Shown here: piece by piece, positions 6,098 through 58,100 of the stretch
How the letters are laid out: the number at the start of each line of letters is the position of its first letter
How positions within the stretch are numbered: position 1 is the first letter of the stretch
Origin: Asterochloris sp. CNOR1
Lineage: Eukaryota; Chlorophyta; Trebouxiophyceae; Trebouxiales; Trebouxiaceae
Reading direction: 5' to 3'
DNA length: 64,000 nt
Assembly: GCA_963969365.1 (NCBI GenBank)
Contig: OZ017750.1
Location: 1,798,001 to 1,862,000, forward strand
Translations under genes and position numbers: made by a program
The notes under the pieces: generated by a model
The model's input: the letters and a program-made list of their open reading frames with translations, nothing else
The model's database searches: none
Told to the model about the DNA's origin: nothing

Positions 6098-9000
6098 ATG
6101 GCAACCATTAGCAAGTTGGACACACTCCAGCAGGATGCAGCACAGAAGGCAGCCAAAGCTTCTGCCTTGGAAGATGTTGCCGGGGTTGGTGGAGATGAAA
6201 GGTACCTGGCCCAGATCTGCAATGTTGCACTCAGAAACTATGCTCTGCTTTGTGTTGAGACTGCACCAGACTTGGTGATGCATTGGCTGTCAGCCTTCTT
6301 CTCCGTAGGGGAAAGCAAGCAGTGTGGCCCACAACAGGGCCGCTGCTGCTCGCTTTCTGGTGGGCCAGCTCTGGGCTACACACCTACCAGCTGCAGTTGG
6401 TAGTGCAGCTGCTTGCAGCATGATCAAGGCTCTGGCCATGCAGGTGTCTACAGATGACCTGGCTGTCTGCCTGCAGTGTGACCGAGGCGCTTGCCAAACA
6501 GGTCTTCTCAGACTACAGGAGCTCTGTCACGCGGGGCCAACCTCACCCTGCGGCCATCTCTGAAGCTGCCAGCCTTTCGTGAGCCTGTTTGATGCATCAG
6601 CACCTGCAAGACCACTCCAAGAATGCCTGACAGCTGTGGGCCCACTCAATTTCCCTGCTTGCAGCACAAATGTTGTATATCTGCTGCAGTGCCATTGCTC
6701 TGCCTAAGACAGACTACCCACTCTGGGACACACTGCCGGACGCACTGGTGGACAGTGGCAAACTCAGTCAGCTGCAGCTGGAGGGTGTGCTGTACGCTTG
6801 TACCAAGCACCAGCAATTCCTGCCCAGCGGCGAACGTGAGCCCTATCCCAGTCAACAGAGGGTGTTCAAGCAATTCCGTGTCCATCAGGGCTCTGGAATT
6901 CCCATGTTGTCATGCTTTGCAGTCAATAATGCCTGAGCCTGTGTACAGCATCCTAGCATACTGAAAGTGCAGGATGGCTACTCCAAGCCGTCCGCTGTTT
7001 GAATCCTGCGTCACTGCAGGTGCGGGCTTCTTCATTGGCGATGGAGCTGGTGTGGGCAAAGGTCGTCAGATCAGTGGCATCATTTTAGACAACTATGCTA
7101 GGGGCCGCAGGTGACAGCCTGCATCCTGAACAATGCAGCTTGCCTGCATGGCATTGGCGAGGACAGGGAGAGCCATGTGCAGCCTGCTGCGTACCTGGAG
7201 AGGACCAGCTTCTCCAAGCCCAGCCTGCTGCAAGGGCCCTCCTTGCATGCATGACTGGCTATCCCTTTGCTCCAGCACATTGCGGCCCAGCATGCTGCCC
7301 TGCGTGCACAGGGAGAACATCTGGCTGTCCCTGTGCTCCACCTCATCTGCGCCCAGCATCCTGCCTTGCATGCAGGAAGCATGTGTGGCTCTCCACATCC
7401 TCGGACCTCCACCTGGACGCAGAACGCGACCTCAGGGGTCTGGGATGCATGTCCATCAGCGTCATCAACAACCTGCAGACCCTTGACAAAGTGACCACCA
7501 CTCCACAGGAGGGCGTGATGTTCATGTAGGTTGCTGCATGCGTCGCAGAACATCACACCCTGCTTGGCGCCCTCTGCATCCGCCTGCACCTGTTGAGAGT
7601 GCTCTGTTGAGTGCCTGCTTGGCCTCTGACTGCTGATCTGCACTGCCTCCCTCCCCCTCTCGTGAGAGCTCCCTCAGCATCCACTCCCTCGCCACCACTA
7701 CAGCCCAGCGGCTGCATTGCATGCTCCTGGGTGACCCAGATCCCCTGCACACTGCTGCCTGTGCGCTGTGGCACCCTGCCCAACCACAGCAATTGAATTG
7801 TCGCCTTGCTGCCAGTCTGGGGACACTGCGACCTGCCTGCTGCAGGACTTACAGCACCCTCACCATTGCTCGCCAGAACAAGCAGTCGCGCAGGGACCAG
7901 GTTGTGCAGTGGTGTGGTGGGTTCAAGTTTGATGGCTGCCTCATCTTTGACGAGTGAGTACTGTGCTGCCCAGCCACTGATATTGCAAGGTACCTCACTG
8001 CAGCGGGGGCTGAAGTGCTGCACTGCCATGCTGGCCCCAATCTGCACGACAACCCTGTGGCAGCCCCTCCTCACTGTGACAGGCCAAATCAACTGGCCCA
8101 TGAAGCAGTGCTTGTGATCAGCCCTGCTGCCAGGCAGTGCACCAGCTGCCCACCACTTTGCTCTCTCAGGCATGCTGGCCTGCAGATGCCACAAGGCCAA
8201 GAATTCAGGGACGGGCAAGCAGGAAGGCACCAAGGTGGCACATGAGGTGCAGGAGATCCAGAAGGCCATGCCCCGTGCCAGGGTGGTCTACTGCTCAGCC
8301 ACAGGCAAGATGCTGCCAGCATGCACCTGCTCTCCAGCCCCAGGCTGGGCGGCTTGGCTGTTTGTGTCGACTGCTGCATGACTGCTGACTGCGCGGGATG
8401 CTGTGCTAGGCTGCTGCAGCCAGCAGCTGCTTGCACACATCTGCTTCCAGGTCCGCAGGACAGCGCAGAGCTGTCCATGAACTGCCTCTGTGTGCTGAAT
8501 GACTATGTGCTGCTCAGGTGCTGGTTTGCTGTTTCAGAGGTATCAGGGTGCCAAGGTGTGGTGTGATGCTGCAGGGGTCAGCGAGGTGGGCAATATGGCC
8601 TACATGACTCGCCTCGGGCTGTGGGGACCCGGCTCAGCGTTTCCAAGGTGTGCCTGCCTGCCGCATCGGGAGGGCGCAGTCATTGCCCTGGGACGTAAGA
8701 CTGCATTGCTTCTGGCAATAGCAGTCCTGCACAGCCATGATCGCCTGTGTGGGGAACGCCTCCCAGGACTTGGGCAGTGCAGAGCAGAGCAACAGCAGTT
8801 GGCAGGCACATGCCTGAAGCTTGCCTCGCAAATGTGAGCAACTGCCTGAACGTGTACTGTCACTGCAGTTTTGACGAGTTCCTGGACCAGATGAAGAGAA
8901 GAGGCAAGCCTGGATGACAGACACTGCCTGCCATTCACGGCTGCCTGCCGGGGACACTCAACCCCTTGAAGTGTGGAAGACGGGTGACCTGCTGCGGGCC

Positions 9001-12000
9001 TGCAGGTGTCAGCTTCCTTGAGATGATGGCCATGGAGCTGAAAGCTGAGGGCTACTATGTGGCACGCGGGCTCAGCTTCAGGTTGGTCCCCCTGCCTTGG
9101 GTCTGCCGACCTAAAAACTTTGCTAAGCTGACTCTGTGTGCTGCACGATGACCATGGGTGCACCTCTGCTGCCAGAGCTTGAAGAGGGGCCATTGCCCCT
9201 GAGCCAGCAGGCCGCCTGTGTCAGTTGCCCAGTCAGCTGACAGGCAGGGCCCCTGTGCTGCAGGGACGCAGAATTTACAGAGCTGTCCTGCAACCTGACT
9301 GATGCCCAGATTGAGCTCTATGATGGCGCAGTGGAGATGTGGTGGACCATTCGCAGCGAGATGGTGCAGGCCCTGCACATCTGCAGCATCAAACGAAAGG
9401 ACCTCTGGAAGACCTTCTGGTCTGCACAGCAGCGCTTCTTCAAGCTGCTGTGTGTGTGTCTGAAGGTGAGCTTGGCTTGCATCTGGGGACTCCCTGCTTG
9501 AACAAAAGTCTGGAGACTTGGAAGCTGATGTTCATCTCTGCTTGAAGGTCAGCCACCGTCTTAGTCTGCCAGCACGCATCAGCACCTGAACCGCCAGCAT
9601 GCCTTAGAGCCTTGTTTGGTTTTGACAAGCCTTTGGCTCTTCCTCAAGGCTGTTGGCAAGCTCTGGCTTGCATTTGTAGGAGGCTGGGAAATTTGTCTCT
9701 AGGAGGTTCGTCACATTTCTATGAAGACACTTGCATTGGCCTGCCCAGGACTTGTGGGTTGCTGCGGTGCTGCCACAGGTCTGTTTGTGCTTTGCATTTG
9801 CCATTGCTATGTCGTGCGTATGCCATTGCTCTGACCTGCCTACCCCACCTGCTGTGCTGGCACTGCAGGTTCCCTGTGTGGTGTCAGAGGCCAAGGCCGC
9901 CTTGGAGGAGGGCTTTGCTGTTGTCATTGGGCTGCAGACCACCGGCGAGGCAGCAGCAGACCAGCTCAAGCTTGCACCAGGTGCCTTCTACGGGGAGTTC
10001 ATCAGCCCCACAAAGCAATGTATGCGACTGTTTGTGGAGCAGAACTTCCCTGTGCGCACGCCTGCCAAGAGTCCGCAAAAAGGACAGAAAGGTGAGTGCC
10101 TGCGGCCGCCAGGCACCTGCTGCAGGCTCTCCCTGGTGCTCCTGCAGCACACTGTTGAAGCCATGCTGGGCCCCATCAAGAGCTGTCGCTGGGCTCCAAG
10201 CCACATGCTGCACCTGGAGACCACCATTGCGCAGCAAAGATGTTGCATCGCCAGCACCACTGATCACCAATCTGAAGCCATGGCCCTGCTGCCCACATGC
10301 TCCATGGCTGCAGGGGAGCCAGGGCCTGAGATTGATACATGCGTTCGCATGAGGAATGACTTGCTCGAGCAGATAGACTCCCTGGAGCTGCCTGCCAACT
10401 TCCTGGACGCCCTTATCGACCAGCTGGGGGGCCCAGGTTAGTGTGATCGCAATGGGTTGTCAGTACCAGATGTTTGGATTGTGAGCTGTCATTTCTCATC
10501 GGCATCAGCCAGGAGAGGGTTGAATGTGGGACAGGGATGTCGGGAGTATGTGAGTAAGGCTGCCAACTGAGCATTGCTGCCACCTCCCGGGGATGGTCCA
10601 TGCTGAAAGGCTCAGCACCTGTTGACATCAATCAGCAAGGGGAGCAGGGGGTGGTGGCTGTCAGCTGAGGAGCATTGTTGCGTACATGCAGCACCTGCAT
10701 GTCAAAAGGGCCTTTGCATTTACCGAAGCTGCAGGCTGGGCAGTGCTGCCATGGCCAAGTGACACCTGCATGTCAAAGGAATCAGCCTGTCCACACACGG
10801 CAATCTGCTGGGATGTTCAGGTTAGCGATGCGGCAAGCTGTGCAGCACTGCCACCTCTGCTGCTTGGAAAAGGGCTCGGCCTTCAATGGGTCCTGGTGGA
10901 GATCCACAGATAGTGGCAGGCACCACAGCTCAAGCAAACCCTTAGGCAGTACTTGCTGAGGTTTCGCCAGGCATTCCGTTCCTGCCCCGGACTCACGCTG
11001 CTGGGCACCCTTATCTCGTGACATGCTTGTGTGAGGTCTGTGGTCGAGATGCCAGACTGCAAGCAGCGCATCTTGCCTGTGGGAAAGGTGTTGTGCACTG
11101 CAGGTGCTGTGGCTGAGATGACTGGGCGCAAGGGGCGCTTGGTGCGCAATGGAAAGTCAGTCGTCTACCAGCCGCGCAGCAACACTGGAGACACAGACTC
11201 CCTCAACGTCAAAGAGACGAGTGGGTGTGCTGTGCCATGTGTGCCTTCTGTCTGTGCTTGCCCCAAGTCCCAAATCTCAGCTTGGTGTGGGCTGCCCAAG
11301 TGGCAGGCGGCTCTCTGTCCACCAAACACGATACTCTAAAGACTTGCAGCCAGATGTTTGAATGGCGTCGGCAGGATGACTTGTCAACCCCTGCTTCTGC
11401 CGGGCAGGGCCCAGGGTCACTCCACCTCTGGAGCCTGACTTGGACAGTGTGTAATGCTTACAGGCAGCTTCATGAGGGGCTTGAAAAACATCGCTATCGT
11501 GTCTGACGCTGCCAGCACAGGCATATCCCTGCACGCCTCCCGCGATGCTGTCAACCAGCGCCGCCGTGTGCACCTGACCATTGAGCTGCCCTGGTCGGCC
11601 GACAAGTCCATTCAGCAGCTGGGGCGCTCCCACAGATCCAACCAGGTCAGCTGCAGCGCTGACGCTGTGAAAACATCTGGCACGGCCTTGCCACTGCTGG
11701 CAAAGCCTGACACCAGTCTGACTGTTTGGCTGCTGTGCGTTTGTCATGCTGGGGCGCTCTCACTGCTCCAATCAGGTCAGCTGCACTCGCTGTGGTGTAA
11801 GTTCACAGGCTTGCTGCCGGGTGCATCTGTGCAGGCTTGCCCAGCTGCGCGCGCTGTGGTGTAAGTTCACAGGCTTGCTGCTGGGTGCATCTGTGCAGGC
11901 TTGCCAGGCAGGCACTCACAGCATTGAACAGGACGGCCAGTGCGTGCTGAGTGTTGCACACGACTAGCATGTGCTGCAGCTGCTTGGCGGCACCTGCACG

Positions 12001-15000
12001 TGTGTCTTTGAGGTCCATTTGTAAATGGCTGAGCTTGTGGGCAAAGGGGCCATTCTCTGCTTGAGGCAGGGCCTGTGCAGGACATGGGTCTGTGGCAGTC
12101 GGCATACAAGCACTCACTGCTACGTCCAGCTTCCTCTTGTTGGAATGCGCAGGTCAGTGCCCCCCTCTACAAGCTGGTTGTCACCAACGTGGGCGGCGAG
12201 AAGCGGTTTGCAGCAGCAGTGGCAAGGCGCCTGCAGTCCCTGGGAGCGCTGACACGAGGGGATAGGAGGGCTGCATCTGGCATTGACCTGTCCGACAGCA
12301 ACCTCGACTCCCCCCTGGGCAGGAAGTCCCTGAGGTGAGGCACACTGCACAGGCCGCCATGTGCTGCACACTCTGCTGGCCTGCCACTGCACAGTGAGTG
12401 CACAACAACTTGTCAGTCGGTTGATGCCTTGACCCCTGACTGGCTGCATGCAGCTGGCAGCCGGAGCAGCGGCCTGGCAAGGCCCAGTGCGCTCTAGCGC
12501 ATGGCTGGAACATGTGCTCACCCACCGCATTTGACATCCCTGCAGGAAGATGTATGACTGCATCGTGTCAGGAGGGGGAGTGCTGCCGCAGAACGTCTTC
12601 CTGCCGGACATCCTGGAGGGGGCGCGCATGCAGGACGCCAGCGCCATCCTGGCCGATGTGCCTGAGGGCGGCAGCATCACCGCAGCCCAGCTGACCTCTG
12701 CAGGTGCGATGCTTGCCCTGCGGCTCTGTCTGGGGGAAGCACCCTGCCTGGAGCTTCCTGCTGCAGCTGGGCACTCTGCTGGACAGCATGTCAACCCTGC
12801 AGCCATGGCACCATGCCTTCACACATGTCTGTCCAGGCAGCGCTGACCACCTGCGCCTTGCCGCCTGCAACAGTGCCGTCCGCACAAGCAGGCAACAGCG
12901 CAGTGTCCAAAAGAGTGCCCTCTTGAGCGCCGTGCTCTTCGCTACTGCAGTTCAAAAGCTGCATGACGAGCTGCGCCACTCTGTGGATCTGATGGGCATT
13001 GGCCTGGACAACCCCCGGCAGGACAACATTGCAGAGGAGGGCACAGCTGTCATCAAAGAAACCAACAAGGACATGGGGGATGTCAGGTGAGCCAATGACC
13101 ATGTTTCCCCCACTGAACGCTGTCAAAGGAGACCTACAAGGACATGGGGCACGTCAGGTGAGGAAGGTAGTGCTAGTGGCAGGGCAGGGGCCTGCTGGAT
13201 GTACATGCCTGAGACAGGCATGCAAGCTATGCCGTGGGCACCTCGTCATTGCTGTGCGCCACAATACGCAGATGTGCGTGCCAGCTCCCAAGCATCAAAC
13301 CAGCACCCTTTGCTTGACAGGGGGCACGCTCAGCTGTGTTTCTGGTCAGTCTGCTGCAGCAGGGTGCTGCTGCATAAATGCTTGGCCTTCTTGCTTGTTG
13401 GAGACTGCCTCTGCCTGTGTTCCGTGTCAGCCTGAAGTTCTGCCTCCTCCTGTTGGCAGGCGCTTCCTGAACCGCATTCTGGGGCTGCCGCTGGCTCGCC
13501 AGAACCTGCTTTTCAACTACTTCTTCCTGACTCTGACGTCCCAGATCCAGACAGCCAAGGCAGAGGGAAAGTACAGCGAGGGTGTCAGTGACCTCAGCGG
13601 CGGCAAACTGGTGGAGGTGAAGGAGCCCCAGGTAGGGTCAGAACATCCAGCGCACACACGGTGGGGGAACAGTATTGTTCATCTGCTCCCCTGAGCGGAG
13701 CTTCAAGTAGGGGTCAGCAGCCAGCGTGCACTCTCTGGGTGGGAAGCACTGTCTACCTGTGTTGCGACTGCCAGCTGCTGGCAGCGGATGAAAGGACAGA
13801 ATAGAGCACAGCGGCACCTGCATAGGCATGATTAGCATGCGCTTCCCGCAGTGTAAGTCCACAGTTTGGCAGGCTGAGCAGTCCCCTGCTGCTGCAAACG
13901 CTATGAGTGGACAGTTCTGTGCCCTGAGCAGCCCCTGCTGCTACAAAAGCTGTGAGATCATGTAAGAACACAACCCCAGACGGCTGAGCAGTCCCTGCTG
14001 CTGCAGACGCTGTGGGTGGACAATTTCAGTGGGCTGAGGACACTGCGCAATGAGCTGACCTTGGACAGGGGAATGTCTTACCAGCAAGCATGTCTGCGGC
14101 TGAAGAACGAGCGGGGCCGCCCTGATGACAGGAGCGGCTTCTATCGCAGCAAGAAGCCCATTTTTGGGCAGGTGGGTCAACTTGACAGTGGCACTGTTTG
14201 CCTGAAATGGGCAGCAATGTCGCTTGTGAGCAGAGGGGTGTTCATGTCAGCTTGGCGGGGGCTGTCTGGCCCTTGCTGATTCTTGCGTATGCATTCTGTT
14301 TGCGGAATGTGGTCTGGCCCTTGTGGGTGCCTTGTCCCTGCACAGATGATGTGACTGCCTACCTGAAGTCATCTATCCCATTCTCTCCTGTTTTGAGCAG
14401 CATGGCCCCCACTAGACAGACATCATTCAGGGCCTGCTGCCTACTGATACAGGCGATGACCCTTCTAGCCGTCCAAAGGCCAGGGCGCTCCAACATCTTC
14501 AGCATTTGCCGCCCCAACACGGGGCAGTCCTACTTTGAGATGCCGGTGAGGCCCTGCAGGTGTCTGCCCGAGCAGCCTCCTCAAAGGGCATAATGCCTGG
14601 TGTGCCTGCCTGCCCAGGAACCTTGTGCCTTTGCAGTGCTGTTGCTTCCGCTGCCAAGCAGCATCAGGCAGGCATGGGGCTGGTGTGCATCAACACAGGC
14701 TCAATCTCCATTCACGCCTTTTGTGCCATCAGGGCCAGCTGCGGCGCCCTAGGTTGGAGTGCTATTTCTGATGTTCGCACCGTGTGTTGAGGACCCTGCA
14801 CTGCTCCCTTGAGGTTCCCATATTGCAGCACTTTGCCTGATGATGGTGCCCTGCTTTGACGGCCCTTCACCCATGCACTGCAGGGTGACGATCTGGCCTT
14901 GAAGTATAAACCTGTGGCAGAGGAGGAGGGTGAGCAGGGCTGGGAGGAGGTGTACACCATGTCGCTGCAGCACTGCATGCACGGCCCCGGCTGCACAACA

Positions 15001-17745
15001 ACCAACTGCTCGGTGAGGCTGAAGCTGTGCACTGTCCGTCCTCATCGTGTACACAGCTGTTCCTGCTGCTCCACAAAAGGTATGCACCATGTTCAGATGC
15101 AGTATGGGCACACAAGCCGGAGCCCCTGAAGGGCGCATAAGCATGCAGCCATGCACCCTCCTTGGCGCGCATGTGCTGCATGCCTTGGGGGTACACCAGT
15201 GTACCTACAGCCCTGGCTGCTCTCTGCTGCCATGCCTCCATAAGCAGTCTTGCTGCCCTGCAGGTTGGCACGCGCCTGACCCGTGTGACGATCCTTTCAG
15301 GCAGTGTCGTGCGTGTGTGGGGCACCCTAGAGAAGGTTCTGCAGGTGAGGCCTCCTGCAGCTGCTGCAGCTGGGGTGCAGATGCATGCGCCTGCTTTACT
15401 GGACACATGGCACAGCACGTGCACAATAGCAAGAAGGCCCATCTGCTGAAGGGGCCAACTGTCTTGAATTGTGCAATGTTGCTCTGCTGATGGTGTTAGA
15501 TGCGTGTGCTGTTGTAGTGACCTGCTGACACCCACAATGCCTTGGCTCCTCAGCCCATGACACGACCTGCATTACATGCAAGCACCTTGCTGAATGCTCC
15601 CGCTGCACCTGCCTGCAGAGGAATGAGGGCTCCCTGTCCAAGCAGGACCGCACCATGCGCGTGGTGCGCATCGGCCTGAAAGACAGCAGCAGCCTTGTAG
15701 GTGGGCGCTGCCCTTCAACGGCTTGGTTGCAGCATGTGGGGCTCCCAGTGCCTTTTCTCAGGGATTCCTCATAGCCAGGCACTGCCAGTCAGGCATCAGC
15801 CTGCTGGCCAGGGAAACATGGGCTGCTGAACCACATGGTGTGCCTCATACAGACTGGCATACTTACCTACTTGGGCATGGAGTCCTGAGTTGAGGTGCAT
15901 GCAGGTGTGCGCTACCCTGCGCGTCTGCTGCCCCAGGTGGTGGAGACCCTCAAGTCTCAGCAGGAGGCAGCGGCAAGTGCTGCCCAGGCGGCTGCCCAGG
16001 CGGCTGCCCAGGCGGCTGCCCAGGCGGGGCCGAGCTCCCATGGTCAGGGTGGGTGTCATACACAGCATGTCTGGGCTTCTCAAAGTTGTGCCTGTGCTTG
16101 GGGTCGGCTTTGGTGTGTTGGCAGGGAATCAAGCACATGGTCTGCTGCTTGGCAGCCACCTCCAGCCCTTCAGCCCACAGGCTGCTGCCCTGCAGGTGGT
16201 CCTAGTGTGGCTGACATGGCGCTACAGGGTGCAGCCCTGAAGGCAGCTGCAATGGGGGCAGGCACAGCTGTCAAAGTGGAATCAGTGTCCCCTGTGGACA
16301 AGTCTGCCATGAACAAGGCCTTCAGGTTGGAGCCCTTGCAGCACTTCTGGCGCATGGGCTGCCGCTGCCCTTCACGTCATTGCTGACCATGCTGCCGCCG
16401 CCCCAGCTGCCATGGCTTTGCTGCAGCAAGGGCTGGGAACCCATGTTGTCACCGCAGCTTTGCTGCTGCAGAGCGCCCAAAACCATCCTCGACTTCTTCA
16501 GCAAACCTGCAGCAGGCAAGGGGAAGGCGCCCGCGGCCGCAGCAAACGGCAAGCGCGGCAGAGCAGAGGAGAACAAGATGCCTGAGGCGGCCCCTCAGGC
16601 GGGCGGAAAGCGCCTCAAACAGTCTGCAGCTGCCCCAAAGGAGGCTGACCTGGACCTGACTGAGCAGGTCAGGCCCTAGACACTGCTGGGGATCTTACAA
16701 TGCGCTGCAAGCAAGCCGGTAGCAGACAGACTGCTGCCACCACTACCCCAAAGGAGGCAAACCTAGACCTCACTGAGCTGGACGGACCCGAGATGCCTGT
16801 GGGGACTGCAATGGTGTGTGAGTACACAATCCACCCAGACCTGCATCTGAAGTGAGCAGGTGAGAGGCACAGCCACAGTTGCACAACTGTGGACCAATGC
16901 GGCAAGAAGGGCCTAGCAGTCTGCTGGTGCCATTGCTCTCCCGCTGGGGCAGATGTGGACCTCATCAGGCAGACAAGGCCTGCAGGTGCCTGTGGGAGTT
17001 GTTGCCCTCTTGATTTCTGTTGTCAGTGCTAGAGAGGAGAGGCAGATCTGGACCTGACCGCGCAAGTCTTCCCTGCAGCCACTCGCTACAGGTCTTGTGG
17101 TGCTTTAAGAGGTCCACCTGAGGCTGCGCAGGCTGCACCAGAGGAGGCACACCTGGAGCTGCCAGAGCAGGTCACTGGGCACAGAGGAGCCACTCTCGTC
17201 CTGAAGTGTCCATCAACTGCCATGCCAAGCTTATGCGCTTCAGGCTGAACCGTACTGAAATCAATGACTGCCCAACAGCAGCCCTGGAGCCAGTGGAGTG
17301 TGGTCTCTCGGCCCTTGTGGAGAGCTGGGGCTCCTCCCGGTCTCCTCTATCAGTATATGTCTCAGCAACCCGCAGGGCTTTCATGGTATTCACACAGGTG
17401 CTGCAGGACTCAGACGCGGAGCTGTCAGATATGAAGACCAAAACAGGCCGCAGCCTCAGGTCAGGCGTGTCGGCAGTCACCAGAGATGGGAGCCCAGCAC
17501 AGCAGGAGCCTGACGGTGCAATGCGCAAGACTGGGAGGGGCCTTCTCCTTGGCAGGGAGGATAGCGTTGGCAGCGACAGCAGTTCAGGCCATGTAAAAAG
17601 GCACAAGCATGAAGCGTACCAGCCCAGTGAGCAGCAGATAGCCTGCCTGACTGGTATGGGATTTGAGCACAGCGCTGCCGTTAGGTCCCTAAAAATAAGC
17701 AACGGCAACACAGAGCGCGCAGCCAATCACCTCCTGACTAGCTAA
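6098..17745 (+). CDS. SBNO: Strawberry notch (SBNO/FGT1) helicase-like protein with PIP-like motif and UBA tail
   Basis: Superfamily-2 helicase-like chromatin/transcription coactivator; the Arabidopsis orthologue FGT1 maintains heat-stress gene expression. Thirty exons: 6098-6201, 6477-6578, 6690-6835, 7020-7110, 7376-7525, 7846-7953, 8186-8304, 8575-8647, 8869-8903, 9006-9081, 9264-9465, 9869-10091, 10314-10436, 11104-11220, 11464-11645, 12153-12334, 12546-12703, 12951-13086, 13460-13631, 14007-14171, 14453-14545, 14884-15012, 15264-15344, 15619-15700, 15905-16042, 16196-16325, 16472-16667, 16730-16813, 17033-17170, 17398-17745. They give about 1,360 residues, close to FGT1/SBNO1 length. Visible motifs: [11 protein letters not shown] (Walker A), IFDECHKAKN (DExH box), [17 protein letters not shown] and [10 protein letters not shown] (C-terminal helicase lobe). 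Introns after 8304 and 8903 appear to start with GC. The FGT1 N-terminal PHD region is not seen. Exons 28 and 29 are the least certain. Confidence 0.93.
6690..9081 (+). other. SBNO N-terminal ATPase (AAA-like) lobe
   Basis: Exons 3-10 of the strawberry notch gene. Family landmarks appear in order: the Q-motif-like [13 protein letters not shown], Walker [19 protein letters not shown] in exon 4 (7020-7110), [10 protein letters not shown] in exon 5, FDGCLIFDE joined across an intron to CHKAKN (DECH box, exons 6/7), VVYCSATG (exon 7), and [14 protein letters not shown] (exon 8). All residues expected for nucleotide binding and hydrolysis are intact, so the ATPase lobe looks functional. Confidence 0.92.
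7214..7415 (+). repeat. Degenerate triplicated acceptor/exon start of SBNO exon 5
   Basis: Three tandem copies of about 68 bp: 7214-7275, 7282-7349 and the functional one at about 7350-7415. Each contains an agcccagc-like start, ctgc, a tgca-rich acceptor and a coding start that reads WLS(L/T) in the two better copies. Only the last copy keeps tgcag plus the conserved [10 protein letters not shown]. Confidence 0.75.
9869..12334 (+). other. SBNO C-terminal helicase lobe (Helicase_C_4)
   Basis: Exons 12-16. Key matches to the family are [20 protein letters not shown] (motif IV region), [15 protein letters not shown] followed by the arginine-finger-type LGRSHRSNQ, and [20 protein letters not shown] downstream. 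The SNQ end joins the exon at 12153 directly in phase 0. Confidence 0.9.
11618..11904 (+). repeat. Copy of SBNO exon 15 end plus donor, followed by a near-perfect 64-bp tandem pair
   Basis: The exon end at 11618-11660 (ggggcgctcccacagatcca then accaggtcag) recurs at about 11747-11790 with a few changes. Directly after it a unit starting cgctgtggtgtaagttcaca occurs at 11788-11840 and again at 11852-11904, with one mismatch over 53 bp. Each unit contains GTAAGT followed 38 nt later by TGTGCAG. Confidence 0.85.
13046..13163 (+). repeat. Copy of SBNO exon 18 end plus donor
   Basis: 13046-13092 (coding [10 protein letters not shown], then ag|gtgagc) recurs at 13119-13163, where aaggacatgggg and the following cacgtcaggtgagg are retained. 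The spacing is about 72 bp. The second copy sits in the intron. Confidence 0.8.
13871..14030 (+). repeat. Three copies of the acceptor/start of SBNO exon 20
   Basis: Starts at 13871, 13921 and 13981 share gctgagcagtcc(c)ctgctg, then ctgcaaacgctatgagtgg, ctacaaaagctgtgag or ctgcagacgctgtgggtgg. The third copy is the real splice acceptor; the first two have lost the AG. Confidence 0.8.
15981..16026 (+). repeat. 12-nt tandem repeat coding Ala-Ala-Gln
   Basis: The unit gcggctgcccag is repeated about four times in SBNO exon 25 and encodes an AAQA run at the end of the helicase body. Confidence 0.9.
16472..17745 (+). other. SBNO C-terminal tail: PIP-like motif, repeated acidic exons, UBA domain
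   Basis: Exon 27 opens with [13 protein letters not shown], which fits the PCNA-interaction pattern (hydrophobic, two residues, two aromatics) except that the leading Gln is Pro. It is followed by basic, nucleus-type sequence ([17 protein letters not shown]) and the acidic EADLDLTEQ. Exons 28 and 29 repeat that acidic motif. Exon 30 ends in a clear UBA domain ([11 protein letters not shown] and [13 protein letters not shown]) just before the stop at 17745. The phases 2/2, 0/0, 0/0, 0/0 tie the tail to the helicase body in a single reading frame. Confidence 0.8.
16635..17170 (+). repeat. Four tandem degenerate LDLTEQ-coding units in the SBNO tail
   Basis: Units centred at 16640, 16755, 17045 and 17150 each encode (K/E)EA followed by LDL/LEL and TEQ, TEL, TAQ or PEQ. 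The first ends exon 27. The second lies in a phase 0/0 open segment (16730-16813). The third and fourth lie together in another (17033-17170). Confidence 0.7.
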
Positions 17746-36600: not shown

Positions 36601-37390
36601 CAGGCTCTGTGCGGCATCCCTCAGCCACAGCAGCGCCATCTTTTGCCCTGACACAACCCGGACTGACCTGCCCATTGAGGCTCTCCACTGCATCCTTCAG
36701 CCACTTCTGCATGTCTGTGCGCGCCTTCTCCCGAGGATCCAGCTTAGCTGCCTGGCCCAGCCCCTCCTTGGAGAAGGCCTTTGTCTTCGTTTCCTTCTCG
36801 CAGACTTTGAATCGCTCCATCTGTCGCTCCACCGCTTTGCGTGCCTCTACCAGCGCAGCCTTGTCCTTGATGTCGCTGCCGCTTATCCTGCAGGTCAGTG
36901 GCTGATGACGTTCAGCATTCACGGTACCATGCCACATGCCTGTGCCTTGGGGTGTGCAACTCAGTGCAGCACCTGCCCTAGCAGCATGCCTTGGCCAGCT
37001 TTGGAAGCCTCAGGAGCAGCAGAGCTTTCAGGCTGTACCACAATCGGCGTGTGTGCCATTGTGGCTGAGAGGTCGCACCATGTTTTTATTTGGTCCCGAT
37101 AGCGCTGGAGCTTCTTGATCTCCTTCTTCAGGTCTCCCTCATATTTCTCCTTTTGGTTCATATTGTCTGTATCATAAACCTGCAGCAAGCAGGCAGACAA
37201 GGCGGTGAGACGCCACCTCTGTGCGCGCGCCCAGAAAGCGGCTCCATGAGCCATACTCAAGCCTGCAAATGAAAGCAGCAGCATCAGGGCAGCTCACCTT
37301 GTCCCAGATCTGGTCGAAGATCTCAATGCCCTCATTCACTTTCTTGAGGGTGCGGTCTATTTCAGACTGGAGGCGCCTGTTGGCCCCCAT
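29289..37390 (-). CDS. NOT3: CCR4-NOT transcription complex subunit 3
   Basis: Scaffold subunit of the CCR4-NOT deadenylase that shortens poly(A) tails in the cytoplasm. Exons in transcription order: 37390-37298, 37179-37079, 36887-36668, 36135-36064, 35556-35383, 35040-34939, 34731-34625, 33894-33681, 33220-33089, 32621-32462, 32236-32039, 31777-31677, 31384-31223, 30644-30399, 29841-29768, 29486-29421, 29310-29289. They give about 747 residues, matching the family (human CNOT3 753). The start [18 protein letters not shown] is the conserved NOT3 N-terminus, followed by [28 protein letters not shown] and a coiled coil ending NQEDFDSFD. The middle is Ala/Pro/Ser-rich linker. The C-terminal NOT box is complete (see separate entry). 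Every phase closes; the linker exons from 33894 to 31223 rest on phase and composition rather than homology. Confidence 0.94.
30185..30440 (-). repeat. Three copies of the end/donor of the NOT3 NOT-box exon
   Basis: The real junction at 30376-30435 (plus strand ccccttcacagatctcccac) has degenerate copies at about 30281-30345 (cccctttacaacgtcgccca) and 30185-30246, the latter retaining catgctgcttgt. Spacing is about 95 bp. Confidence 0.7.
30636..30945 (-). repeat. Copies of the acceptor of the NOT3 NOT-box exon
   Basis: The plus-strand core ggacttactgcaggcacagg at about 30652-30672 recurs as ggacttgctgcaggggcagg near 30832 and ggacttgctgcaggat near 30927. A weaker copy of the exon edge is at about 30755. 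Confidence 0.65.
34360..34660 (-). repeat. Copies of the end/donor of NOT3 exon 7
   Basis: The plus-strand segment 34572-34660 (gctgccaggcaagatgctac, ccgcgccgcaacctgg, ccttgag) is repeated at about 34485-34555 (gttgccaggcgagatgctgc, gcgccgcaatcttgg, cattgag). A weaker copy lies near 34360-34425. The real copy carries the splice donor complement cttac. Confidence 0.75.
35383..37390 (-). other. NOT3 N-terminal coiled-coil domain
   Basis: Exons 1-5 encode the Not3 domain. Conserved blocks in order: [103 protein letters not shown] and [15 protein letters not shown]. This is the surface expected to link to other CCR4-NOT subunits and, in yeast and human, to the ribosome. Confidence 0.93.
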
Positions 37391-49160: not shown

Positions 49161-52100
49161 TTAAGTACAAACTTCCTGGAGCTGAGCGTCCATGGGCTGA
49201 TAATCTGAACCTGTCTGCAAGGCAGTGCCCTGAAAGCCACGTTCCCGAATGGCAGTGTGGCCAGTGGGCTTGAAATCGCTGTCAGAGAAAAAGCTTGCAT
49301 AGTCCTCATCATCATGTTCATGGCTGTTGGCAATGGCAAGCTCCTCCCCTGGCAAGATGCTGCAACCTGTAGCACCATGCAAGGTGTGAGCCACAGCCCT
49401 TACGAAGGGAGCCCTTGCTCTGGCACTGTGGCAAAATGACTGCACAGCTGCAGGGGGTGCCTACTTGCAGTCTCCCTGCAGCCAGTCTTGCTGAGGACAC
49501 TGCACATGTACAGCCGTTCCGAGAGCAACCCACCTGCTAAGGTCATTTTGTCTTCTTCAAGCTTTTGCCACTGCCCCTCCTTCAGTTTGTGGATCTGAAC
49601 ATTGCGGGGGTGCATGGTGAAGGTCTGCACAATCTTGAGCCTGAGATCGTGGACCGTGTCGTGGCTGCTGACAGTCATGGGCACGCGGCCCTTGCGAGCG
49701 CGCTTGCTCTTGCGAGCTCCTGCAGGAGGGTGGTGTCTTTCAGTCCCTGGCACGTTGTCCTCTACATTTTTTGCCGCAGCAGCTCAGCTCATGTTGCCAT
49801 GCCACACCCCAGTGCAGCTGCTGAGCACTCCCTGGCGTGACCCTTGAGGACTTTCCTGCCCGCGATCGCTCCATGCCCACTGCAGAGCTCAACACACTGC
49901 CGGCAGCACCTACCTATGACGCTGCTGCCAACTGCAGTGGAGGCGTTCCTAAGATCTTCCTCAGTCACCAGCTCGGCAAACACCTCCACGCCCGTATAGG
50001 TCAGCTTGTGGGCCATCAGGGCGGCCGCCCGTGCAGTCACGGCCTGCTGGCACACGGGTGGCGTGCTCTCCAGAAACCCCTGCTGCGCAGGGCGGGAGGC
50101 GGTGGCTGCTCCCTGCACACAGTGGGTGCGGGCCGCGTTTAGCACAGTCTGCGCTCTGCAGGACACAGATGGCATGCTCTTCAGAAGCCCTGCTGCACAG
50201 GCCGGGAGGCAGTGGCTTCTCCCTGCACACAGAGGTGCGGGCTGCATCAGCTCATCTTCCTGTGCAGGGGAGAGTAAGGCTGTTGTGTCTCTCCTGAAAC
50301 AGCTTGAAAGATTGGGGAGCAGACATGGCAGGTTGCTACTCACTGCACATCAGGTCTGGGTGTGCATGAGCAGGAGCCCCGCCGCCAACCCTTCTACGGT
50401 GTGGAGGCAGAGGCAATGCTGCTGCCCTGTGCCACAGGCAGCAGACCAGACACTGCAGGTGGCTGCAGCCTGCATTTCAATTATGGGCTGCGTCAATGCC
50501 AGGTCCCGGTTTTGCAGCTGTCGCCCATCCCTTGGCACGCCTCAGTCAGAGGAGGTGCTGGGCAGCCTGTCAGACGGCTGGATCAAACCCCCAGCAGCTT
50601 GCTGCACGCTGTCAGTACTGCAGGAGGTCCAGCTGAATGGCAAGCTGCTCCAGTGTGCACATGCCTTGCCTGAAGCTCCGCCTGCGCCAAGGTGGGCATC
50701 AGCATATAACAAGCCAAGGTGCACCTCTCTTGCCAGACATCAAGCAGCGCTGTCAGGCATGAGCCCGCCAGAGGTCATGCGGCCCAGGCCCAAGCCTCCT
50801 GAGCACACGGCAAGCCTCAAGCCGTACCTGAATGGGTTTGAAGGGGTCATCCCCATAGACCCGCTCATCTGCCAGGCTGCCCGCCACCAGCGGCGGCGCG
50901 GCTGCCTGCTCTGCCTGCTCTGCTGAGGGGCCAGACACCTTCAGCCTGGCGGTGGGTGCCCTGCATGCAGCACCCGCAGGTCTGGCAGGCACGGCCGCGC
51001 GGGGAGCAGCGGGATACAGACACAGCCTGCCTCGTGTGTGGATGCCAAAACGGCTGCCGCATCAGAGGAGTCCACAAGCATGTCCATGTGCACCCGTGTG
51101 CAGGCTCAGCAAGATGGGTGCCACAGCAGAGGACAACCAGGCTTGTCTCCGTGCAGGGGTGCAGGCTGAGCCAGCACCAGGGCAGCAGCAGGCTGCCTGA
51201 GGGGCACACCTGCTTTGGAACAGGTCATCCCCCTCAGGCCCATACAGCAGGGCCAGCTGCTCCCAGTCCTGCATGGCCACCAGCTCAAAGGGGTCCTCAC
51301 TGGCGTCCACCTGCATCCACCTCCCGCGCCTGCAAGCCAACCAAGACTCAACAGGCGCGCTGGGCAAGATGAGCAGTAACACACAGGCACGCCACAAGAC
51401 TGCTGCGGGAAACAGCTCTGGAACCCAGCCACCAGGCAGCCAACAAGCCTGCGCACATGCGGCAGCCGCCTGCCAAGCTTGCAGGCATTGTAGCAAGCTT
51501 GAGGTGCCTGTGGCGGTACAGACATCAGGTAGCCGAAGTGAGGATGGGGCACAGTGGGCCAGGACCAGGGGCGCGCATCAGCGATGCAGCCGGGAAGCCC
51601 AGCTCACAGGATGCTCTGCCTTGTCATGTTGCAGGTGCACCCCTGTCAGCCTCATTCTGTTGCTTGAGGCAGGAAGGTGTGGTGTTGCAGGTGGGTCAGC
51701 AGGGTGACCAGCCTGTGGCCGGCCTGGGGGCTCACCTGTGAACCACGGCAGGGACCTCATAGTTGAGCAGCCTCCCGTGACACTCGCACATCACCCCTTG
51801 CAGCGCCTGTGCCAGCTGGGGGGGCGCCTCGGCCACACAGCCCCCTGGAACGCGCTGCTTGCGGCTGCCCTCCTTGATCCAGGCACGCCACACCTGCAGG
51901 CCGGGGGGGGGGACCACCTTGGCAGCAGCGTCTGGGGTGCTTGCACCTCCTAGGCAGGGGCAGCCACAACTCGCAGCTATCCTCCTTGATCATGACATGC
52001 CACATCTGCAGGAGGGGCCAATGGGCAGGGTCAGCTCAGTGCCTCAACAGCTGGTGGGCATCTGTCACACCTGCAGACAGGCCCAGAGGCTGCTTGGCGG

Positions 52101-55100
52101 CATTGCAGGTGGGTGCCTGTGCAGCTTGAGGGGCCCTCCTGACGGCAAATGCAGCTTGGCACCTGTGCAGAAGGCTGCCCTCCCTGCTTGAGGCCCGTAA
52201 AATGTACAGGCAGGGGCAGGCACAGCTGTGGCGCCTAGGCGCAGCTTGCTGCACTGCCACCCCAGACGGATGCGTGAGATGATTGGCCATTGTCTTAGAG
52301 CAGCCCACAAGGGGGCAACCACAAGTGCAACTGCAAGCACAAGCATAGCAGCGACAGGCCCTGGAGCGTATTGCTTAGAGCAGGTGAGCGCATCCCGCCT
52401 GAGGGTACGCTGTGCCCCCCAGCCTGCTGCCAGAGATGCAGCAGGCTGCTCTGCAGCAGCACAGCCTCAGAAATTGCAACAAGGTCTGACAGGGAACACA
52501 GCTGTGCCATTGGCAGGACAACGACACTGACTTAGTTTGAGGCAGGGCTGGTGTTGAATAATACATTCCCTTGGCTGCCAAGGCCATCTGGCAGCACCTG
52601 GAGACTGACCTGGAGCCAGTTCTGTGGCACAAGGGCGTAGATGCTCTCAGGCTCCAGGTGCAGAGCTGTGCCGGCTGCCAGGTGGGGCAAGCTGGACTTG
52701 ACATCCTCCACAGCCTCAGACACCGCCTGCAGCCAGCACACAGCTGGCAGGGTGAGTGAAGCCACATGGTCAAGATTGAGCAGCACACTTCGAATTGAGC
52801 GCATCTCTGCTGACAGCTTGGTGCGAATCCGGCTTGCAAGGAGCAGCAGCAAAACAGAAGGCACCATGGGCACCAGGCAAGCATGGGAGCAGATCTTGAA
52901 GGTGTGGGCTTGTAGAGCCCCCCGCTTGCAGCCTACAGGGGAGGATACAGGCCACAGGCAGCTGACCTGGCCCTGGCGCCGCGAACTGGCAAGGTCCCGT
53001 AGGCACACACGACAGTCCTGGTGCCCGACGTTGAAGGTTGCCAGCTCCCGAGGGGTCACAGCATCTACAGGCAGTATGGAAATTGGGTCAAGAGATGATA
53101 ATAGGATGTGCATTACACCTGCGCTGCACCTGGCAAGCTGCCCACAGCTTGTACCTACCGGCAGCAAGCCCGTTCACAGCAGAGACCTTGCCCACCATCT
53201 TGGCGGAAAACTTGTGCATCTTTGTCAGCGTGCATGCCATTGTACTGGGTCTCCAGAGATCCGGCTGGATCTCTGTTCCCTTCGTCAGACAAGTCGGCGT
53301 GTCTCTGCAAAGGCGATGACCCGCCGCCCATGCATGATGCTATACTTGCCCCCATCCCCAGCTCCGCGCCCTTGCGCTGCCATACACGCCTGGCCATAGC
53401 ATGCCACCAAGCTGCGTGGCATTATGCAAACGCTTCCAGGAGCCCAGGACACCGTTCCCTGGCCCCAGCAGCGCAGGAGGCATATCACACTTGTTGGCCA
53501 GATTCAGCAGCCGGTCAAATTATAGCTTGCGGGCTGTTGTGCTGAGTTTGATGATGGCCCTGCCCCCAAGATACAAGGATGCTGGCAGATCGACAACATT
53601 GTTGCAGATATCTGCAGCACTGCTCCAGGGCCACAGCAGCCATTTGTGCCCACAGTTTGTGAGACATAGGAACCGAACCTTTGTCGGGGGGTGCTGGGCT
53701 GGACGCCGTCGTGCCAGGCCCTGCCAGGGGCGCCCCATCTGCCTCCACCATCACGCAGTCGCTGTCAGCCTGCACAGAATTCCTGCAGGCAGGGGCCATG
53801 CTCGATGTAGCTGGAGGCCTGCTGCCCACAGCACCTACAGGTCCCTCCAGACTGCATGATTGAACCCAGCTTGCAGCAGCTTGGTGGAGCTCTGCTGATT
53901 AATTTTTGGGGATCAGAAAGGCGTAAGCCAGATGCACCCCAAGATCCACAAGGAGCTCCACATGTGCAGTGCAGCCTTGGCAGCAGCAGGGCCCCAGCAC
54001 ATGAGGGCCACAGGCAATGACAGCTGTCCTCACTGCTCCAGGATCCCTACATGCCAGATGCATCTCAGAGGGCCACACCCACCCATTGGATCTGTCAGCT
54101 GGCGCCCCCTCCAGCAGATCAGCCTGCCTGGCAACAGCAGCTGTCTCCGCTGCAGTGGCTGCCTCTGTGGCTGCCTCTGCAGCTTCCTGCGCCCTCTTCA
54201 GCTCTGCTGCCTGCCAGCTGCCCCTGACAAACCCCCAGAGGTCGCGTGGGAGGCTGATGCGCCTGGCGCGTGTCCCAGCAGACTCTGGCAGCAGATCCCC
54301 ATGCGGGCAGGTGATGTTGTCTGTGGGGGAGTCCACCACCTTCGCCTTGCTGCCTGAGGCAACAGTCATCCTGCCTTTGCGAGTCCTCCAGTTCCTGCAC
54401 AGCATGGGCGACACGTCAGCATGAATGGAGTCAGACATGTCTCAGTTACATGGCTTAGCCTGCAGTACTGCTGGCAGGACACATGGCTTGTTGAGTGCGA
54501 GATGGCTGCCAATGGCCAGCAAGGTCTTTGCAGCTATCCCAGTCTTAGTGGAGAGCACTTGACCATCACTAGCGCTGTGCCAGTATGTGTGCAAGCAGGC
54601 CAATTGCTGGGACAATGTGCCAAAGAAGAGCTAAGCTCACTGCTGCTTGCTGTGGGTGTTGGAACAGTCTCACATACAGGGAACAGGCTAGGTGGCGCCT
54701 ACACATGACAGGTGACCTGCGCCTAGGCCAGCACCACAAGTAGGCAGGCCAAGAGTAGTGAGGGCAAGCTCCCCCTTGCCAGGGTAGGCAGCAGCTGGCT
54801 CTGCCATTCCAACAGCACCTGGACAAGGCAGAGCACAGGCAGTCCCGACACACTCACTGGATCCATTGCCGGGAGACATAGAAGTCCTGGCTGCCGCCTC
54901 GCTCATCGGCGGCCTTCAGAGCAGCCACGGCAGCCAGCATGGCGTCCCGCTGCTGCCCCTCTGCATCCTCGTTGTGCATGGCCTCAAGGCGCTGCAGCAG
55001 GCAGGCCGTGCACAGGTCCTCAGGGGCCAGCTGAGGACCCCCCCCGCAGCGCTCCACCAGCTCCGTCCAGGCCTCCACCGTGATGCGCTTGATGGTGTCT

Positions 55101-58100
55101 GCAAGGGCAGGGGCAGCCTTTGGAGACACGTGCTTGACAGTGCCTGTGGCAACAGGCAGGATAGTTGGGGCTGCAGCGCTCTGCCAGCTCCACCCTGGCC
55201 TCCCTTATGATCAAGAGGGCGCCTGCATGAGCAGGTCGGCATCGTGCAGGGTCAGGCTGGAGGTGGTGGCCGCAGGGCGCTGCTTGTGTAAAGGAGATAG
55301 GCTGATGGCGCAAAAGAACAATTTGTCTGAAGGGCAGGCACGAAGAATGGCTGCAGTGCGTGCCACAAGCTAGGCCTGGCCCAGGGCTCCTTCGAGATGT
55401 GCATGCTGGTGTCTGCAAAGGACAGCAGAAGGGAGAGAGCTGCAATAGGGTCCAGCACCACCACATACAGGGCTCAGCACAGTCGAGTCACTCTGCTGTG
55501 CTGATGCAATGGGCTCCTGCATCTTGATGGCCAGGCCCAAGGGAGACGGCTGCAGCAAATGTAATTGGCGATGGGAGCAGAGACAGCTTGGTTCAGCAGA
55601 TAATTGGCGGCACCAGAGGATACTCCTTGCCTTCAGTGCCCAGGCCAGTCTTCAAAAGCTTGCCAATTGGATGAGTCTGACAGACAGCCTGTGCAATGCA
55701 GGTGGCGCATAGCAGCAGGCCTGTGCCAAGGCAAAAGCAGATCTCAGCAGGCATCACCTGGTGGTTTGTCTGGGCTCAGCTTGCCATGGGTGCACAGTGG
55801 CGCCTCATTCTTGATGGGCTTCAGCTCAGGATCTGAGTCCACCCATTGCTGCAGCCACTCCGCCGACACCAGCCTGCTGTCGTCATGCACGCTCCGCACT
55901 GGCGCCTGGGCCACAATCAGCCGCACAGCACTGCGATGCTGATCCACATCCATCTGGACGCTTTCCTGCATGGCCTGCAGCACAATTCACGTCACTCTGA
56001 GAAAGTCGTGCAATTTGAGAGCAAGGTGGTGGTCCACAGCCATCTCAAAGTATCCTGCTGTAGCCTGCAGCAAGCCAGCAGATTATTGAGAGCCTGGTGC
56101 AGACAGCTTCATCTGAAAGCTGCCCCGCATGGCAATACGCACCCCGGCAGGTGCTGGCACACAAAGATGGCCTGCAGCATGCTGCCACACTGCTGAGGGT
56201 ACCATGCATGGCCTGCAGCGCCATGCAGAGCCGCATGTAGAGGACTCAATGAATGCATCACTGCAGCAAGACATGCATCGCATTGATCTCATCTGGGTGA
56301 CAGTCTGTTGCAAGGCACTAATGTGGGCAGCATCAATATTGAATGGCATACAGCTGAGATGCTTGTCTGCAGCCCTCGCATTGCCACGCTATGCGCAAGG
56401 CAACTAGGTGCGTGGCTACGCAGCTGGGACGCATACCTGCAGCCTCAGCAGCGCACCACGCAGCCAGTGGCAACACTCTGGCTGTGGCAGTCTTTCAGCA
56501 TCTCACCTGATGCGAGGTGCATGCGGCTTCAAAGTCTTTGTGCTCCTGCGTGAGTACCTGCTGCAGCCTGCACCAGGGACACTGAAGCACTACGTTAATC
56601 ACATCAAACAGCAGAGAATGAGTGACTGGGAGGCAGCAGCACGAGATGGATGCACCAGGCGCACTCAAACTCAGGTGTTCACAGACAACACTGAGGCAAA
56701 GTGCAGGCACAGGGCCCAAGCAGATTCAGTACCAATGCAAAGCAAAAAGCACTCCCCGTGCATTGACTTACGATTCAGGCAGCTCAAGCGATGCTGGGCA
56801 TGCTGCAGTTGGTGGCTGCCAGCCCCTCTGTTTATACAGCAGCATGTAGGCATTGCATGATGTGATGACGCCCTCGTTCTCCTGAGCTGTGGCAGGGAGG
56901 CCTGTGATGCCTGCAGGTGACCCACTTGTTTCAGGGTCACTTGGTTGCTGAGTGCTTGCTCAAGACGATGCTGTGCTGCCTGCAAGGCGCTCACCTTTCA
57001 ACAGGCCAGCCTCAGCACATCAAGAGCCATCAAGGGTCGCCCAGGCACACATTCTGCCCACTGCTGACCCTCAGATGTGACGGCTATCTGGCACGTGAAC
57101 AATAGGGAGCTTGCCTCCCATAGACGCCTGGCAGCATGCCCAGAACTGCATGTGAACCCGGGTGCTGCATTCCACCGCATCCACTTGCGCATATTGGTCT
57201 CCTGGCCGCAGCTGATGTTCTATGAAAAAGAGGGTGTTGCTTGCTCAAGGCAAGGCCAGCATGCATTCCTGTCCTTCTCTTGCTCAAGGCCCTGCAGCCC
57301 TTGCTGAGCACAGGTTCAGCAGGCAGTGCGGATCTGTCCAATCTCCTGCTCAGGATTGGCAGTTCAGAAGAGTTGCCCCACATCCTGCCAGCACACCTGC
57401 ATCTCTTACAGGTGGCTGCGCATCGCCAGGGAACTCATAGGGATCGTCTGTGCAGTCCACCACGTCCCCGCTGTCACCAGCGGACTTGAACTTGGCTTTC
57501 CGCTTCTTGACCCTGCCAGCGCCGCCTGCACAGGATGAGAATGTCACAGCTGATTGATAGTTTCTGCCTGACCTCAGTGTTGCTTGCCTGTGCAACTTTC
57601 AGGAAAGGGGCAGGGGTCGAGCAGGTGGCGATAGGCACAGTGGCAGGAGCCTGCTTGTGCAGTTCCATTGCTCAGCCAAAGCTGATTCAAACCGCTGCAG
57701 ACCCGCAGAACTGCCAGGCACCCTCAGTGCCTTTCTTTGCAGGCCCGCCGGCGCCATGCATAGCCGCTTACCTGCAACACTTTTCTTTGAGGCAGACACA
57801 GCTGCCGGGGCCACCCCTCCGTGGTCCCCCTTGTCTCCAATGGGACCCTGGGGCATCTCTGTGACCGTCTCATCGTCAAAGCGCCACCACTTTCCAGATG
57901 CCTCATCCCGAACATGCGCCACTGCAGCAGGCAATCAGTTGAACCACGTCAGGCTCATGGTGGCAGGTTCACAGGCACCATCATCTGACAAAAGGCTGCA
58001 TGCGGTCACTGTCCAGGCCATGGCGGAGAGCCCAGAGGGGGGAGACCTCATTTGCTACGTACATCAGGCAGCCTCTGAAGTGTGGCCCTGAAGACTCGGG

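Follow-up and report, generated by a model that had tools for sequence, protein, structure and literature searches.

Old local tandem duplications as a probable source of exon-edge copies in the introns of Asterochloris sp. CNOR1

Introduction

In a 64,000-nucleotide stretch of the green alga Asterochloris sp. CNOR1 (GenBank assembly GCA_963969365.1, contig OZ017750.1, positions 1,798,001 to 1,862,000 of the forward strand; here called the window), the end of an exon with its donor site, or an acceptor site with the start of its exon, recurs as degenerate tandem copies inside the adjoining intron. Why should introns of unrelated genes repeat their own splice junctions? A first-pass annotation had counted 13 or more such sites in five genes and suggested a continuing, junction-spanning duplication that is a main way for introns to grow, or to arise. 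We find tandem copies over splice junctions repeatedly in the sampled genome, outside the window as well as in it. They are best explained, with a probability of roughly 0.6, by old local tandem duplications that are seen via their conserved coding copy, with no special intron-making route.

Results

Sample and gene models

The genome sampled comprises 56.38 Mb in 21 contigs, and the window lies within contig C5. A first set of 18 10-kb loci, one per large contig, and a held-out set of five further 10-kb loci were analyzed with the window. One of the first 18, L010 (contig C7), was chosen to cover an earlier match to the window and, unlike the rest, was not regularly positioned. All splice junctions are predictions, made from sequence by a self-written, self-trained hidden Markov gene finder whose training set was the window plus the first 18 loci. 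It predicted 231 introns in these 244 kb and 294 with the held-out loci included, 92 of them in the window. The splice signals were clear (donor, CAG/GTGAG; acceptor, CTGCAG/G; the slash marks the junction). Pfam domains matched the spliced models in the window, namely, the strawberry-notch helicase C-terminal domain, Not3 and NOT2_3_5_C, UCH and DUSP, and a piece of a class II tRNA synthetase. Predicted gene ends were often wrong, and the helicase model is without its 5' exons around 7025-7066 and from 7376.

Of the first 18 loci, 16 had a GC content of 56 to 59%; the other two had 52% and 54%. The excerpted genome paper on Asterochloris glomerata gives 56 Mb, a GC content of 56 to 62% in 98% of it, and nine introns per gene (PMC6652019). 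The same excerpt gives a chloroplast genome of 217,546 bp and a mitochondrial genome printed as 11,0932 bp, which is read as ~110.9 kb (PMC6652019); by their similar sizes, contigs C20 (110,056 bp) and C21 (215,390 bp, by subtraction) may be the mitochondrial and chloroplast genomes.

Exon edges are copied far above chance

Repeats were called with a self-written banded local aligner at scores of at least 20.0 and lags of 20 to 400, adopted because self-BLAST missed close-lag pairs that were visible in a diagonal scan; pairs scoring lower were left out of the counts. The window and the 23 loci yielded 131 local pairs of all classes. Five control bands, each as wide in lag and beginning at 1000, 2000, 3000, 4000, and 5000, yielded 2, 0, 2, 2, and 0 pairs, with up to half fewer positions available in the 10-kb loci at the longest lags. 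Local head-to-tail copies within genes are thus far above chance, as expected of local tandem or internal gene duplication, and the earlier observation of tandem copies is borne out.

The pairs form 47 families over a predicted junction (24 acceptor, 22 donor, and 1 both) and 10 that are wholly intronic. The remaining families are intergenic (30), at gene ends (7), exonic (6), or exon-intron pairs in which the junction itself is not aligned (3). The held-out loci yielded 11 junction families and 1 intronic family, besides 3 that are intergenic and 3 at gene ends. A strict junction event was found in 43 of the 294 introns (~15%, about one in seven) and in 23 of 43 multi-exon genes. The window itself holds 11 junction families, 6 at donors and 5 at acceptors, spread over five predicted genes and both strands, and 18 at scores of at least 18.0, one or more of these being in low-complexity Q-rich coding sequence. 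Together with an array at 7255, which corresponds to the first site of the annotation (from 7205 on), and two sites at predicted stops, this makes the original count of sites a fair one.

The excess did not depend on repeat calling. When the first 40 exonic bases at each junction were compared with the adjacent intron (score of at least 13), matches were found for 10.0% of the donors and 9.6% of the acceptors (260 of each), and for 0.2% and 0.6% of the respective controls. For exonic bases 41 to 80 (470 junctions) the values were 0.9% for donors and 1.3% for acceptors (controls, 0.3%), and for bases 81 to 120 (343 junctions) they were 0% and 0.6% (controls, 0.5% and 0.3%). With 50 exonic and 8 intronic bases and a score of at least 12, the excess was ~13% for donors and ~12% for acceptors. 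These tests leave out short exons and introns of <120 bp, so that 520 of 588 junctions were kept in the 40-base test and 518 in the 50-plus-8-base test. Introns carrying junction copies were also longer (median, 561 bp) than those without (274 bp), partly because long introns offer more opportunity. The copies are recurrent, as first described, and lie in long introns; calling them a main way in which introns grow is a model-based step, discussed below.

Gene models from a self-trained finder, several of them with wrong ends, raise the suspicion that chance similarity, low complexity, or misplaced exons produced the pattern. The nearly empty control bands, the Pfam domains that match the spliced models, and the codon-position asymmetry described next make such an artifact barely credible.

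A single copy codes, and the other decays

We compiled 44 strict junction events, in which the second copy lies within the same intron and each junction contributes one event, hence fewer than the 47 families. The aligned exonic part was 14 to 81 bp (median, 38 bp), and identity was 0.783 in the exonic and 0.749 in the intronic part. The lag had a median of 124 bp (quartiles, 101 to 150 bp; 5 to 95% range, 73 to 264 bp); it exceeded 140 bp in 13 events, and longer lags may comprise two or more units. At least 80% of the unit was aligned in 10 of the 44 events, and the rest may be faded units; the median ratio of aligned length to lag was 0.86 for intronic pairs and 0.52 for exon-intron pairs. 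Full tandem units are present inside introns and across junctions alike. No strict event ran past the far exon end, as a duplication of a whole exon with both splice sites would. A tandem pair at L017 4294-4599 (lag, 195), with both copies across a predicted exon boundary, is possibly a tandem exon duplication.

Mismatches between exon and copy at codon positions 1, 2, and 3 were 0.197, 0.185, and 0.284 in complete gene models, which indicates that one copy is coding and the other is free. The crossing of the junction, which had been regarded as a special feature, loses that status: whenever a tandem duplication leaves just one coding copy in place, it is bound to cross the junction.

Selection for alternative or decoy splice sites would give the intronic copies a function, and in 14 of 50 pairs, with some junctions counted twice, the score of the copied site indeed equals or exceeds that of the site in use. 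This reading is nevertheless highly improbable, since the copied dinucleotides have been retained as in neutral decay: GT was kept in 8 of 16 pairs and AG in 14 of 23 before the held-out loci were added, about as 79% identity predicts, and in 14 of 23 and 18 of 27 in all loci. Mean scores are also far lower for copied than for used sites (donors, 3.0 versus 7.3; acceptors, 3.8 versus 8.0), and lags modulo 3 are even (19/17/14 in the 50 pairs), with no bias to multiples of three.

The least plausible of the alternatives is that introns arose when an exon segment containing AGGT was duplicated in tandem (the Rogers model), an origin which the annotation had entertained. CAG/G is common to the donor and acceptor signals, as such an origin would have it. 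However, the donor window matched the acceptor window in register at a score of at least 13 in only 1 of the 263 introns kept after length limits (out of 294), in a Q-rich gene, versus 0.15% in controls, and the copies lie near their own junction, away from the opposite end of the intron.

The spacer, i.e., the lag minus the exonic part, was shorter than 36 bp for 5 of 21 donors and 0 of 23 acceptors (Fisher P = 0.019), the smallest being 10 bp for donors and 37 bp for acceptors. An acceptor needs its own branch-point region, and the longer acceptor spacers agree with this need.

Three further origins were discarded. One candidate was a transposon that leaves a long target-site duplication, since alignments often end just past the splice site; a single 14-bp match was found among the spacers. 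Exonization of intronic repeats was set aside in view of exon edges such as 11618-11645, which lie within a conserved helicase domain (by counting of exon lengths, the junction at 11645 falls inside the Pfam Helicase_C_4 match). Repeat-induced hypermutation was set aside in view of the mutation spectrum, which is not unusual (194 transitions and 191 transversions; C-to-T changes at 24% of CpG sites versus 9% elsewhere).

Young junction copies are lacking

None of the 56 exon-intron pairs, a class that takes in pairs without an aligned junction, exceeded 90% identity. The best reached 0.89, so that the single mismatch in 53 bp reported at first does not apply to any pair of this kind. Judged by the exonic part alone, 1 of the 44 events exceeded 0.9, whereas constant birth over 0 to 0.35 substitutions per site predicts 39% (simulation; P = 8e-9). 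The process is not visibly continuing, contrary to the first-pass annotation. A few young noncoding tandem pairs do exist (a 64-bp intronic pair with 95% identity and a 68-bp pair in L015 with 97%), which argues against assembly collapse.

These same young pairs, and a per-event identity spread (standard deviation, 0.064) that does not exceed the spread simulated for a single age range of 0.2 to 0.3, are what can be said for duplication that still goes on, or for copies already diverged at birth through error-prone copying. Either is very unlikely, given the deficit of close pairs on the one hand and the ordinary mutation spectrum on the other. In our models the duplications would date to about 0.25 to 0.3 neutral substitutions per site and would have been rare since. 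Older events would be undetectable; a slowing of the process can therefore be stated, and a single burst cannot.

Junction excess and uniform placement

The observed ratio of junction to intronic families (J:I) is 47:10, or 4.7. It might reflect duplications that are started by features of the boundary (nucleosome edges, R-loops, or replication or repair at splice motifs), with introns growing mainly from their ends. This junction targeting draws support from the ratio itself, from its recurrence in the held-out loci (11 versus 1), from the restriction of the copied exonic parts to the first bases beside the junction, and from the fact that uniform continuous duplication predicts a J:I of only ~0.5 to 1. 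Under a first null of uniform placement with ages 0 to 1, J:I was 0.92 to 0.97, and the observed excess had a binomial P of 1.8e-7 at a junction share of 0.49. However, purely intronic lags are of the same order (median, 92 versus 126 for exon-intron pairs), and the ratio depends on age: because the exonic copy is conserved and both intronic copies drift, divergence in purely intronic pairs proceeds at about double the rate, and J:I rises with age.

Simulated J:I at ages 0.25 to 0.30 was 1.3 to 3.3, 1.4 to 5.2, and 2.2 (P = 0.017) in successive sets, depending on the indel rate and the limits set. Units of 55 to 140 bp with an intronic part of at least 40 (donor) or 55 (acceptor) gave 3.1 to 3.3. 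With these minima, t of 0.25 to 0.30, and placements seen solely by their intronic part counted as intronic, J:I was 2.8 to 6.5 (P = 0.08 to 0.87), and targeting is then unneeded; this last set was run as a check on whether placements seen without the junction are mostly exonic and not intronic. Three late sets drew units solely from the 43 lags of 55 to 140 bp, and settings were tuned after the data had been seen. The best setting (t = 0.25, indel ratio of 0.3, and minima of 40/55) gave J:I of 3.1 and 3.7 in two runs (P = 0.14 and 0.31), Kolmogorov-Smirnov (KS) P values for exonic length of 0.30 and 0.42 (lag of ≤140) and of 0.16 and 0.12 (all events), and an exonic identity of 0.79 versus the observed 0.78.

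Several points weigh against uniform placement. The spacer minima of 40/55 were picked post hoc and exceed the smallest observed spacers (10/37). With minima of 10/37, J:I was 2.7, 4.4, and 4.2, but the exonic parts were too long (KS P of 0.0009 to 0.007 for lags of ≤140 and 1e-6 to 3e-5 for all). Besides the low values of the first null, J:I was 0.50 to 0.74 for t of ≤0.2 with an indel ratio of 0.1; 0.66 for ages 0 to 0.4; 1.4 for 0.25; 1.7 for 0.2 to 0.35; and 0.55, 0.80, 1.26, 2.22, and 2.23 (the last with P = 0.017) in a further set. Several old-age settings fail the exonic-length test for all events (KS P of 0.0006 to 0.05), and alignments reach less far into the intron than in the simulations (median intronic part, 16 versus 24). 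Splice sites and the polarity of the duplications rest on predictions from one genome.

The ends of predicted coding sequences (CDS) add a tally that is not clean, because of wrong gene ends and splice-like motifs. Apparent copies were found at 4 of 38 starts and 4 of 40 stops (8 of 78 in total). In a later realignment, three of the four stop rows are void since query and target overlap. By our own reading, six of these eight copies carry motifs that look like splice sites and could be junctions placed wrongly, which would favor targeting; one further start match is of low complexity. A similar copy rate at CDS ends as proof that splicing is irrelevant was dropped for this reason and because some gene ends are wrong. 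At ends without a strong alternative splice site, matches scoring at least 15 were found for 3 of 16 starts and 0 of 20 stops (3 and 2 at a score of at least 13), and at ends with one for 2 of 21 starts and 3 of 17 stops (5 and 3); these tallies have no control and decide nothing.

On balance, old uniform duplication with a conserved exonic copy would suffice, and targeting, which we regard as unlikely, is not needed for the exon-edge copies. Of the earlier claim about an excess at junctions, the copying of exon edges (~10% versus 0.2 to 0.6% in controls) holds, whereas the notion of a favored target does not follow, since 47:10 can be produced by old uniform duplications.

Sites in the window

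The copies in the window and associated features are collected in Table 1.

Table 1. Tandem copies at predicted junctions and related repeats in the window
Feature	Positions	Strand	Remarks
66-bp-period array over acceptor	7255..7394	+	Strawberry-notch-like helicase gene; exon start 7376, taken from translation and TGCAG/G (gene model truncated there, missed exon); upstream copies intronic
Exon end and donor (exon ends 11645), 11618-11655; copy 11748-11785	11618..11785	+	Lag 130
Purely intronic 64-bp tandem repeat	11778..11905	+	3 mismatches/64; closest noncoding pair within any window gene
Exon end and donor (exon ends 13086); copy 13119-13162	13046..13162	+	
Acceptor and exon start (14007); upstream copy 13872-13928	13872..14038	+	Lag 110
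Copy pair at predicted 3' end (stop ends 16679)	16630..16805	+	Aligned part includes CAG/GTCAGG; may be mis-modelled donor
Exon end and donor (exon ends 22455); copy 22524-22575	22420..22575	+	
Acceptor and exon start (24968); copy 24708-24763	24708..24981	+	Weak, score 19.7
Full-unit tandem duplication over donor 25390	25359..25668	+	Lag 132
Copy pair at predicted stop 30384	30250..30442	-	NOT3-like gene; lag 97; TTCCAG/GTGGGAG suggests mis-modelled donor
Acceptor and exon start (exon 30384-30660); copy 30799-30851	30620..30851	-	
Exon end and donor (exon 34625-34731); copy 34492-34562	34433..34659	-	Second pair 34433-34461 / 34579-34607
Donor-side pair (exon 36668-36887)	36591..36704	-	Weak, score 19.1; lag 76
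Exon end and donor (exon ends 47550); copy 47602-47663	47500..47663	+	Copied donor CAGGTGGGC identical
Full-unit tandem duplication over acceptor (exon 49914-50112)	50044..50268	-	Lag ~110
Acceptor and exon start (exon 51736-51893); copies 51970-52017 and 52173-52216	51858..52216	-	Second copy weak
Acceptor and exon start (exon 54858-55098); copies 55173-55235 and 55381-55421	55046..55421	-	

The intronic region at 11685-11961, which includes the 64-bp repeat, has a counterpart in an intron of a different predicted gene (L010 5104-5313, contig C7, minus strand). The two have ~250 bp in common, in the same sense and with 73 to 79% identity; the counterpart appears to hold one unit only of the 64-bp repeat, and the rest of L010 has no blastn match to the window. 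Downstream of the 3' copies of the helicase gene, an open frame at 17122-17745 (plus strand) was left unannotated by the gene finder; its terminal sequence is presumably UBA-like. At 48593-48705, an in-frame coding repeat of 51 bp (WQYDAATA..PQ; 85% identity) lies in a gene model that we take to be SFI1-like and that has no Pfam match.

Discussion

The preferred reading may be put as follows. Ordinary local tandem duplications, mostly of ~60 to 150 bp, would have arisen throughout the genome some time ago and would have been rare since. Those inside exons would have been lost, the protein being altered. Those in introns, or over a junction with the original donor first or the original acceptor last, would have been tolerated, the extra DNA being spliced out. 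Purely intronic pairs would then fade about twice as fast, both copies drifting, while junction-spanning pairs would stay recognizable through the exonic copy held by selection. Splicing may have acted as a further filter: some intron sequence would have to be left between the site in use and the copied exon edge, and copied exon pieces would consequently be short. The net effect would be that introns were lengthened and none newly made. That tandem duplication lengthened introns is probable.

How much of the intronic DNA arose in this way is far less certain. If the count of 47 junction families is corrected with simulated detection rates of 0.28 and 0.18, and undetected intronic families are added at the simulated placement ratio, with units averaging 104 bp, the duplications would account for ~58% and 90% of the predicted introns (109 kb in all); at the lowest rate, 0.11, the estimate exceeds the whole of the intron DNA, so that the arithmetic holds to an order of magnitude only. 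We regard it as possible, though doubtful, that a past and now largely ended genome-wide episode of 60- to 150-bp tandem duplication supplied a large part of the intronic DNA. A stronger form, in which junctions were also preferred targets, may still hold.

Local duplications that are spliced out would offer a simple route by which introns lengthen without transposons. They also set a trap: because selection holds exons, junction duplicates outlast intronic ones, and repeat counts over splice sites overstate any junction preference. Conserved exon edges may serve as fossil references, or a clock, for dating old duplications. The copied sites that score at least as high as the used ones, about a quarter, would provide a natural test of how the spliceosome settles on the first donor and the last acceptor.

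Comparison with known systems

Introners have been found mainly in several lineages, green algae being named among them, according to the part of the source consulted (PMC9860276); like the duplications described here, they represent a large-scale change of intron content. No introner-like family was found in an all-against-all blastn comparison of the 294 introns, which matched only between L009 and L015 (three matches), between L010 and the window (two pieces of one pair), and in two short cases (24 and 37 bp). L004, L009, L015, L016, and L017 have dispersed repeats in common (48 to 2175 bp; 81 to 100% identity), perhaps transposable elements. The word "tandem" is absent from the main text of the A. 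glomerata genome paper (PMC6652019), and no title among the literature matches listed reported exon-edge copies of this kind in a green alga, although this does not prove that no such report exists.

AGGT tandem-duplication intron gain resembles the present case in that the duplicated segment includes splice motifs. There, one copy supplies the donor and the other the acceptor of a new intron, whereas here the intron preexists and the register test fails; among the 294 predicted introns of this one genome, we found no new intron made from an exon-edge duplication. In the excerpted account of the potato RdRp gene, a duplicated segment crosses an intron-exon boundary, as here, and another duplication of 83 bp lies inside the first intron; a new intron and an added exon resulted there, whereas the original splice pattern is kept here (PMC4974935). 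Tandem duplication and intron sliding in Drosophila likewise involve a coding region that carries a splice motif and is duplicated in tandem, and in the available part of that report they explain novel intron positions, whereas here the copies lie inside introns and positions need not change (PMC2891723).

Internal gene duplication, which Gao and Lynch reportedly described in 2009, is like the process proposed here in being the duplication of a local segment within a gene. The present case differs in consisting mainly of short, old, spliced-out copies of exon edges, in ~15% of predicted introns, with one-sided decay.

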